Shown one piece after another: positions 2,789 through 8,617 of a stretch of DNA of 32,525 nucleotides. The stretch is taken from positions 1 through 32,525 of IMG/VR virus record IMGVR_UViG_3300032011_000064, one strand, 5' to 3'. A program made the translations under genes and the position numbers. The notes beneath the pieces were generated by a model. The model did no database searches, was not told the DNA's origin, and saw only the letters and a list, made by a program, of their open reading frames with translations. This DNA is from a virus. How positions within the stretch are numbered: position 1 is the first letter of the stretch; the number at the start of each line of letters is the position of its first letter.

Positions 2789-2793
2789 AAATA
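2786..2793 (+). promoter_or_regulatory. Possible late promoter element overlapping the psbA -10 box
   Basis: AATAAATA fits the T4-family late -10 pattern NATAAATA. It overlaps the sigma70 -10 box by three bases. If used, psbA could be transcribed both early and late. The motif is AT-rich, so chance is a real alternative. Confidence 0.35.
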
Positions 2794-2794
2794 A

Positions 2795-2938
2795 CATCGG
2801 GTGAGCATCTGCTGACCTACTAGTACCCCAAACCGAGACCAAGGGGATTAAGTCTCTCATATCCATCAGTAAAGGGATTGATGGAAATAATCGTATCGCT
2901 TCTACCCTTTGAAGCCCTACTTTTTAAATTGTCCTATT
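2795..2938 (+). ncRNA. Structured psbA leader RNA (PhotoRC-like candidate)
   Basis: The ~144-nt leader between promoter and psbA folds by eye into several elements. Hairpin 2800-2817 has GGU and AGC arms pairing with ACC and GCU. A possible H-type pseudoknot pairs CCCC 2826-2829 with GGGG 2843-2846, interleaved with GAGAC 2835-2839 pairing GUCUC 2852-2856. A hairpin pairs UCCAUCA 2862-2868 with UGAUGGA 2879-2885, and another pairs GCUUC 2898-2902 with GAAGC 2911-2915. The loops of the last two hairpins contain AAAGGG (2871-2876) and CCCUUU (2905-2910), perfect complements that could kiss. There is no ribosome site before the psbA ATG. PhotoRC RNA motifs are known upstream of psbA in cyanobacteria and cyanophages; membership here is inferred from position only. 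Confidence 0.6.
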
Positions 2939-4021
2939 ATGACAACTCTACAAAAAAGGGAACAAGGACTCCTTTCTGGATGGTCCGAGTTCTGCGAGTG
3001 GGTCACAAGTACTAACAACCGCATCTATGTTGGTTGGTTCGGTGTCTTGATGGTTCCTTGCCTATTAGCTGCTACTACATGCTTCATCGTAGCATTCATT
3101 GCAGCACCTCCTGTCGATATCGACGGAATCAGAGAGCCAGTTGCTGGATCTCTTATGTTTGGTAACAACATCATCTCTGGTGCAGTTGTTCCTTCATCAA
3201 ACGCTATTGGTTTACACTTCTATCCTATCTGGGAAGCTGCTAATTTAGATGAGTGGCTTTACAACGGTGGTCCTTACCAGTTGGTAATCTTCCACTTCCT
3301 TATCGGAATCTCAGCATACATGGGAAGACAGTGGGAACTTTCATACCGTTTAGGTATGCGTCCTTGGATCTGTGTTGCTTATTCAGCACCTGTATCTGCT
3401 GCTTTCGCAGTATTCCTTGTGTATCCATTTGGTCAGGGTTCATTCTCTGATGGTATGCCTCTCGGTATATCTGGTACGTTTAACTTCATGTTCGTATTCC
3501 AAGCAGAACATAATATCTTAATGCACCCATTCCATATGGCAGGTGTTGCAGGTATGTTCGGTGGAGCATTATTCTCTGCTATGCATGGTTCTCTTGTTAC
3601 ATCTTCTCTAATCAGAGAGACAACAGGTTTAGATTCACAGAACTATGGATACAAATTCGGACAAGAAGAAGAAACATACAACATTGTTGCAGCACATGGA
3701 TACTTTGGTAGACTTATCTTCCAGTATGCTAGCTTTAATAATAGTCGTAGTCTTCACTTCTTCCTTGCTTCATGGCCTGTGATTTGTGTATGGTTAACCT
3801 CTATGGGTATCTGCACAATGGCGTTTAACCTAAACGGATTCAACTTCAACCAGTCGGTTGTTGATGCATCTGGTAAGGTTGTTCCTACTTGGGGTGATGT
3901 ATTGAACAGAGCAAACCTTGGTATGGAAGTAATGCATGAAAGAAATGCACACAACTTCCCACTTGACTTAGCATCTGCTGAGACATCTGAAGTTGCACTT
4001 GTTGCTCCAAGCATCGGTTGA
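2939..4021 (+). CDS. psbA: Photosystem II reaction-centre protein D1
   Basis: The 360-residue protein matches cyanobacterial D1 throughout. Recognisable parts are the N-terminal [18 protein letters not shown] block, [21 protein letters not shown], the P680 and iron-ligand region ([20 protein letters not shown]), the QB pocket ([15 protein letters not shown]), and the manganese-cluster end ([12 protein letters not shown]). The C-terminal extension after LDLA should be removed by host CtpA. Gln131 corresponds to canonical residue 130, the Gln (D1:1-like) rather than Glu variant. The start at ATG 2939 gives the normal D1 N-terminus. In the host thylakoid it would replace photodamaged D1 during infection. 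It is monocistronic, with its own consensus promoter, structured leader and terminator, and no Shine-Dalgarno sequence. Confidence 0.98.
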
Positions 4022-7910: not shown

Positions 7911-7953
7911 CGTTCAACCTCATAGGAGGTCGCAAGTAAGCCGACACGGAACG
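7911..7953 (+). ncRNA. Glutamine riboswitch aptamer 1 (glnA / downstream-peptide type)
   Basis: P1 is CGTTC 7911-7915 pairing GAACG 7949-7953. P2 is ACCTC 7917-7921 pairing GAGGT 7926-7930. The conserved CGCAAGT follows at 7931-7937. This order (CGTTCA, P2, CGCAA-T, GGAACG) matches my memory of the glutamine-binding glnA/downstream-peptide RNAs of cyanobacteria and marine phages. It is the first of two tandem copies. Confidence 0.82.
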
Positions 7954-7956
7954 GAT

Positions 7957-7998
7957 CGTTCATCCCTGCGGGGACGCAAATGTTCGACTGAAGGAACG
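7957..7998 (+). ncRNA. Glutamine riboswitch aptamer 2 (tandem copy)
   Basis: P1 is CGTTC 7957-7961 pairing GAACG 7994-7998. P2 is TCCC 7963-7966 pairing GGGA 7971-7974 with loop TGCG. CGCAAAT follows at 7975-7981, and GAAGGAACG closes the element. It is three bases after aptamer 1 and 22 bases before the ribosome site of the peptide gene, so glutamine binding could affect initiation of translation. Confidence 0.85.
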
Positions 7999-8031
7999 GG
8001 GCAAAAATCCCTACTACTTTGGAGAAAACCA

Positions 8032-8175
8032 ATGGCAAAAGTCACTTATCGTGGAGTCGAGTATGACTCTGCAGAGTACAACAAGAGCGTACTCACTGAA
8101 GCAGCTCAACACAGAAACCATGATCTTATGTATCGTGGAATCAAGGTAGAACGCAAGTTCGCATCTAAGAGTTGA
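8032..8175 (+). CDS. 47-residue YRG-motif peptide under glutamine riboswitch control
   Basis: The ORF starts at ATG 8032 with GGAG at 8021-8024 as ribosome site. It encodes 47 residues with two YRG motifs (VTYRGVEYDS near the N-terminus and MYRGIKVERKF near the C-terminus). This is the short downstream peptide expected behind this riboswitch class. The YRG pattern recalls the DUF4278-like cyanobacterial peptides, which as I remember include PirA, a small PII-binding regulator of arginine synthesis. If so, the phage would manipulate host nitrogen metabolism in response to glutamine. The family link is from memory of short motifs and is uncertain. The unit is monocistronic, with its own promoter and terminator. 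Confidence 0.82.
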   Translation: MAKVTYRGVEYDSAEYNKSVLTEAAQHRNHDLMYRGIKVERKFASKS

Positions 8176-8196
8176 GCTTAACCTTACTTGGTTCAG

Positions 8197-8224
8197 AGAG
8201 GGGTGTTGACACCCCTCTTTTTTT
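8197..8224 (+). terminator. Rho-independent terminator of the riboswitch-peptide unit
   Basis: A GC-rich stem AGAGGGGTG / CACCCCTCT (8197-8205 with 8210-8218; loop TTGA, or one pair longer) is followed by seven T. It lies 22 bases after the peptide stop. Its loop region also contains a TTGACA box. Confidence 0.93.
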
Positions 8225-8234
8225 ATGCAATAAT
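8206..8234 (+). promoter_or_regulatory. Sigma70-type promoter embedded in the terminator
   Basis: TTGACA (8206-8211) lies in the loop and 3' arm of the terminator hairpin. A 17-base spacer leads to AATAAT (8229-8234), 5 of 6 to consensus. Transcription would start near 8241 and enter the structured RNA region. Confidence 0.6.
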
Positions 8235-8240
8235 ATATTT

Positions 8241-8446
8241 GTTGAGTTGACGAACGCAACACGGGAGTGACTGAAAAAACTTGCTGGCATAAGGCTAGTT
8301 AAGGTGATGAGACACAGGTGGTGCTGCTTCTTCGGAAGAACCGACATACCAGTCGGGTCTCAGACAGTAAGGTAAAAATCTACTAATGTAGCAATGCCCC
8401 TTACTTGTTGGTACACATAACTCCAACCTCCCACCCACTCTAAATA
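8241..8446 (+). ncRNA. Candidate structured RNA, class not recognised
   Basis: About 200 bases without a plausible gene but with consecutive helices: GTTG 8246-8249/CAAC 8257-8260; AACT-GC 8278-8284/GC-AGTT 8294-8300; TGAGAC 8308-8313/GTCTCA 8357-8362, enclosing a C(UUCG)G tetraloop hairpin 8327-8338 and CCGAC 8341-8345/GTCGG 8352-8356; AGTAAGG 8366-8372/CCTTACT 8399-8405, enclosing CTAC/GTAG 8380-8391; and GTTGG 8407-8411/CCAAC 8423-8427. The loop ACCA (8348-8351) could also pair with TGGT (8319-8322). It follows a good promoter and precedes a short ORF, so it may be a leader or a free RNA. Cyanophage RNA motifs such as manA and wcaG are candidates to compare; I could not match it to any class. 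Confidence 0.6.
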
Positions 8447-8447
8447 A
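8440..8447 (+). promoter_or_regulatory. CTAAATAA motif, possible late promoter
   Basis: CTAAATAA lies 14 bases before ATG 8462 and resembles the T4 late -10 box. If active, transcription would start around 8454, which favours 8462 over ATG 8447 as start of the next ORF. Confidence 0.35.
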
Positions 8448-8461
8448 TGAGAAATAAAATC

Positions 8462-8617
8462 ATGAACAGAGGAAAATTAAAAGTTTTAATCATGGCTCTT
8501 AAAGAAGTCGTAGAAGAATTGGAGTCTGAAATCTATTCAGATGTAGAAGCATACCAATCAGTTCCTGTAGGAGACTATGAAGAAGTTTTTGAAGATGATG
8601 ATGGATATCCAGACTGA
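8462..8617 (+). CDS. Small acidic hypothetical protein
   Basis: ATG 8462 gives 51 residues: a basic start (MNRGKLKVLIM), an amphipathic helix (ALKEVVEELESEIYSD) and a very acidic end (YEEVFEDDDGYPD). An in-frame ATG at 8447 would add five residues. Neither has a clear ribosome site. The strong protein-like composition in a region otherwise made of RNA structure argues that it is real. No family recognised. Confidence 0.62.
   Translation: MNRGKLKVLIMALKEVVEELESEIYSDVEAYQSVPVGDYEEVFEDDDGYPD

Follow-up and report, generated by a model that had tools for sequence, protein, structure and literature searches.

The question raised by this locus is what a helix-rich stretch of about 200 nt, lying between a promoter and a very small gene, encodes, and whether it serves the gene behind it. 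The stretch belongs to a 32.5-kb viral record of IMG/VR that was analysed over its whole length of 32,525 nt (hereafter the window), and the genes near it (psbA, a purN-like formyltransferase gene, a DUF4278 gene, phrog_878, thyX and a 2OG-Fe(II) oxygenase gene) form the kind of set that a cyanophage should carry. The Rfam model of manA RNA (RF01745) matched positions 8240–8437 of the (+) strand over its full length (model positions 1–192 of 192) with 162.9 bits against a gathering score of 55.2 (E 1e-43); the match was recovered again under laxer search filters and is the only manA in the window. We regard this identity as practically certain and, since the score lies far above the RF01745 gathering threshold, there is no new RNA class here. 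A sequence-only reading of the same DNA had called the RNA unassigned and perhaps a new class, which is wrong, but had proposed the Rfam search that settled the matter and had named the manA/wcaG-type phage RNAs as a further guess. The first half of that guess holds, whilst wcaG RNA (RF01761), likewise a cyanophage riboswitch candidate, gave no match in a covariance-model search of the window (a wcaG search of 14 phage genomes returned 0 matches, with its controls also at 0, and is uninformative for those genomes). The structured RNA placed at 8241–8446 is real, with its extent corrected to that of the match, as the last bases of that interval are a late-promoter-like motif (Table 1).

manA entered the literature as a riboswitch candidate (Weinberg et al., 2010; PMC2864571); Rfam 14 brought a corrected alignment of the family, with 48 significant base pairs (PMC7779021), and one manA has been reported in S-CREM1 (PMC9964418). 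Rfam files the family as cis-regulatory. The literature searched yielded neither an experimental study of manA, including its expression in infected cells, nor a ligand, and manA has been an orphan riboswitch candidate since 2010. The copy in the window shares with the published family (PMC2864571) the full-length match, all helices, the marine cyanophage setting (here a viral record with psbA, thyX and purN-like genes) and the position 5' of a gene, but its variable hairpin is capped by UUCG where the consensus has GAAA, and the genes downstream are phrog_878 and thyX rather than genes of mannose metabolism. The family is known; what is new here is a testable reinterpretation, suggested by the data below, of manA as an independent RNA moving between sites and not a switch for its neighbouring gene. 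Other RNA elements seen in the window were a PhotoRC-II RNA at 2813–2898 (+) (56.7 bits), immediately 5' of psbA (2909–4021), and two tandem glutamine-riboswitch-like aptamers at 7911–8002 (+) (23.5 and 33.2 bits, both below the gathering score of 35), which lie 5' of the DUF4278 ORF at 8032–8175.

Table 1. Features of the manA locus in window coordinates.
Feature	Position	Strand	Basis or remark
Terminator-like stem-loop of the upstream unit, holding the -35 hexamer TTGACA	8195–8220	+	sequence
Predicted sigma-70-type promoter, TTGACA-N17-AATAAT	8206–8234	+	11/12 consensus matches
P1, 5'-terminal hairpin closing the 5' end of the transcript	8240–8261	+	RF01745 alignment
P2, closing the whole body: GGGAG (8263–8267) with CUCCC (8428–8432)	8263–8432	+	structure mapping
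Multibranch domain closed by TGAGAC/GTCTCA	8308–8362	+	helices 4, 5 and 8 covary
Long hairpin with conserved internal loop	8366–8405	+	helix 9: 7/7 outer pairs covary
3' hairpin GUUGG/CCAAC	8407–8427	+	helix 11 in covariation analysis
Late-promoter-like CTAAATA	8440–8446	+	sequence
Small ORF, phrog_878	8447–8617	+	annotation

The helices singled out by the sequence-only reading are present, namely TGAGAC/GTCTCA (8308–8313 with 8357–8362), the C(UUCG)G hairpin at ~8327–8338 and two more compound hairpins. The multibranch domain comprises a GUGGUG hexaloop hairpin, the variable hairpin (UUCG-capped in the window) and an ACCA-loop hairpin. Folding energy was better than that of shuffled sequence, as had been anticipated, but modestly so, at -59.9 against -49.5 kcal/mol for 8241–8446 (z -2.4, 4/200) and -60.3 for 8240–8437 (z -2.6, 2/200 shuffles as good), and by itself is modest evidence for a structured RNA. 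The structure is confirmed by the decisive evidence, which is the family match together with covariation. The comparison of homologues that had been suggested was made with 67 non-redundant manA copies from IMG/VR and isolates, scored on the Rfam structure without P1, the length of which is too variable: 93.2% of cells were paired, 26 of 48 pairs had double changes, and the covariation score was 0.273 against 0.121 in shuffles (0/500), dropping to ≤0.068 once partners were slid by 1–3 columns. The P1 segment forms a hairpin of at least 4 bp in all 75 of 75 distinct loci. The P2 pairing GGGAG/CUCCC belonged to the search pattern used to collect the copies and so was unable to vary within that set; in P-HM1 and MED4-213, fetched by another route, it is GGGUG/CACCC and hence compensated. 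The loops are highly conserved across the aligned copies. Such a complex conserved fold with highly conserved loops favours the 2010 proposal (listed as a riboswitch candidate in PMC2864571) that manA is a riboswitch or other sensor controlling the downstream gene in cis, a reading which we regard as possible though not probable. Conservation of the loop nucleotides exceeds what a stabiliser needs, and this counts against manA being a generic 5' leader that protects the transcript from decay, or modifies RNA polymerase for terminator read-through, ahead of any gene; we consider that explanation rather unlikely.

The promoter reported 5' of the RNA is indeed there (11/12 consensus, with TG preceding the second hexamer); it ends, at 8234, six bases 5' of manA, and its expected transcription start is the first base of manA. 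Among manA loci at large, a promoter with at least 10/12 matches stands 5' of the RNA in 108 of 113, compared with 22 of 363 control segments, and the first paired base of P1 falls 4–6 nt past the -10 hexamer in 69 of 75 loci, so that the RNA should start with the hairpin. Sequence and covariation show manA as an independent module that abuts its own strong early-type promoter, with its predicted 5' end in a hairpin and a long-range helix joining the ends of its body. Placement exactly at the predicted transcript start is also what a generic leader would show. The -35 hexamer lies inside a terminator-like stem-loop in 54 of 99 loci, as in the window, where a terminator stem-loop plus early promoter between genes (8195–8234) matches the arrangement of the PeSL cassettes of T4-type phages, shuffled between sites (Arbiol, 2010; Comeau, 2014; via PMC4503421); compared with PeSLs as that source presents them, manA has an extra conserved RNA of about 195 nt 3' of the promoter. 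Given that PeSLs have been described as agents of shuffling (work cited in PMC4503421), the promoter within the stem-loop and the movement of manA between sites would both suit a chiefly DNA-level mobile or recombination cassette with an incidental RNA fold, but covariation means selection on that fold, and the compensatory changes already make this explanation very improbable.

Exactly one manA was present in each of 14 complete cyanomyovirus genomes (14/14) and one apiece in 43 more viral records (10 + 33), mostly fragments; ten other cyanomyoviruses and one podovirus were searched and gave no match, so that manA is not essential in general. One copy per genome is odd for a general leader. 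A single copy, a strong promoter and a structured RNA might equally describe a replication-origin transcript or primer, but GC skew has no switch at manA and the skew profiles of P-HM1 and P-HM2 are alike though their manA copies lie ~108 kb apart in record coordinates, which leaves this as the least probable of the explanations weighed here.

The neighbours of manA vary: it stands before talC, gp32, tRNA-Gly, a purL fragment or small ORFs, and after gp23 or pstS, with at least eight distinct neighbourhoods among isolates and up to 8 downstream contexts inside single 97% manA clusters. Where two copies are at least 95% alike, the DNA is unrelated on both sides in 116 of 159 locus pairs, which are not mutually independent and may include metagenome contigs that are chimeric across the conserved 200-nt stretch; the isolates P-RSM6 and P-SSM3 show the same relocation, with near-identical manA at differing places, and chimerism does not affect isolate comparisons. 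The clearest comparison is of two close relatives on the same host: in P-HM2 manA lies between the gp32 promoter and gp32, and in P-HM1 a similar promoter and gp32 flank a short stretch in its place; after gp23, P-HM1 has a promoter, manA, a terminator and CTAAATA, and P-HM2 a terminator and CTAAATA only. The small ORF of the window likewise occurs in S-T4 and Sf-CH5 behind a like terminator-promoter without manA. With or without a terminator, the module occupies differing sites in different phages at one copy per genome. The same RNA beside unrelated genes, and genes that retain their own signals at manA-less sites, are points against a riboswitch, and a leader would have to be one that the genes at empty sites manage without.

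A late-type motif such as CTAAATA, the late promoter motif of T4-like cyanophages, occurs at most 25 nt from manA in 19 of 103 loci (1.6% of control segments) and within 60 nt 3' of it in 23 of 103 (3.9% of controls); in such loci late mRNA would exclude manA, a further point against a riboswitch. The tiny ORF noted behind the RNA (phrog_878) is present in the window, with its true start probably at ATG 8462, as the homologues in S-T4 and Sf-CH5 begin at the equivalent position. A terminator-like hairpin follows within 110 nt in 37 of 103 non-redundant contexts as against 23 of 412 controls, some of the 37 calls (L048, L107, L118) looking weak, and a tRNA follows directly in 9 further contexts, so that one or the other comes next in 46 of 103. 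The tRNA genes (Asn, Asp, Gly and others; L003, L025, L038, L050, L071, L105, L115, L037, L015 and, with tRNA-Gly in S-SSM7, L135) lie mostly within ~20 nt of the manA 3' end. The hairpins in the 37 contexts could serve a riboswitch as expression platform, but no shared platform is apparent downstream: manA is followed by one of several terminator hairpins of unrelated kinds, by a tRNA or by the plain leader of an ORF. By eye no overlap was seen between the manA 3' strand and the downstream terminator-like hairpins; a switch before a tRNA, or before terminators unrelated in sequence, would be unusual. The sequence-only reading had also mentioned a riboswitch, and this remains the published guess for the family, weakened by the single copy, the shuffled neighbours, the tRNAs and terminator-like hairpins downstream and the manA-less genes. 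A generic leader would accommodate downstream genes of any kind, tRNAs included, and terminator-like hairpins right after manA in many loci fit antitermination. The put RNA of phage HK022, which folds at the start of early phage transcripts and promotes terminator read-through, resembles manA, by description only, as a structured 5' RNA whose effect would extend to whatever gene comes next.

Of 80 scorable loci, 77 have their next gene on the strand of manA, and in 12 the preceding gene runs the other way. With a same-strand gene next in nearly every case, a riboswitch or a cis leader keeps some probability, and a generic leader would account for the bias; the bias counts against a trans RNA, since a free RNA gene need not show it. 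It suits a cis leader but also a module that settles between an existing promoter and the gene behind it (gp32 in P-HM2 being an example), two readings that look alike in sequence. Convergent downstream genes were considered as a means of excluding a cis role and abandoned, there being only three apparent cases: L131, where the annotation is probably wrong, and two more that lie over 350 nt from manA. In L131, from P-TIM68, the reverse-strand CDS after manA (2790–3095) overlaps a forward ORF shared with L068 and L097, and its annotation is doubtful. Neither a terminator nor a tRNA was found within 110 nt in 57 of 103 loci, which counts against a free manA RNA; in these loci, the window among them, transcription seems to continue into an ORF. 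In the window no terminator stands 3' of manA, and the small ORF is probably part of the early transcript too.

On balance we favour, with a probability of roughly 0.45, the reading that manA is an early-transcribed, self-contained mobile RNA acting mainly in trans. Somewhat more tentatively, manA may be misfiled as a cis-regulator and be instead an early, mobile, single-copy gene for a stable trans RNA of ~195 nt that has a host or phage target and is sometimes released by tRNA processing. On this mobile trans-RNA reading, manA would be made early in infection by the host RNA polymerase, be freed through termination, tRNA processing or cleavage out of a longer transcript, accumulate as a stable RNA of about 195 nt and work mainly in trans, bound to a protein or ribonucleoprotein of phage or host; in the window CTAAATA may drive a separate late transcript of the small ORF. 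The stable RNAs C and D of phage T4, small RNAs of unclear role encoded near tRNA genes, are comparable by description only. If manA is free-standing, ligand screens built around its neighbouring genes would be misdirected, and marine cyanophages would possess a dedicated early RNA with a target that pull-down could identify. With P-HM1, P-HM2 and P-SSM2 in culture, this can already be put to the test.

Some minor observations concern the surroundings of manA. In 23 of 111 loci (for example L045, L062, L082 and L040) manA is followed after a few bases by a conserved hairpin, GACCUAAGAUGCAA...GGGCAGAUGGUC, often with a T-run behind it; the hairpin has a conserved internal loop and gave no Rfam match there in the loci searched. 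Docking of the manA GAAA loop with the downstream CCUAAG...AUGG hairpin, as tetraloop and receptor, was considered and rejected because the two showed no clear link, GAAA occurring in 6 of 23 loci with the hairpin and 10 of 88 without. manA was also seen on bacterial MAG contigs (L160, L162) and a Prochlorococcus single-cell contig (L161), which may be phage DNA. Finally, the hypothetical proteins annotated over manA in P-HM1, P-HM2, S-SSM5 and P-SSM4, which overlap the RNA, probably do not represent genes (L125, 2503–2679; L134, 2555–2729; L128, 2569–2775; L133, 2566–2739).
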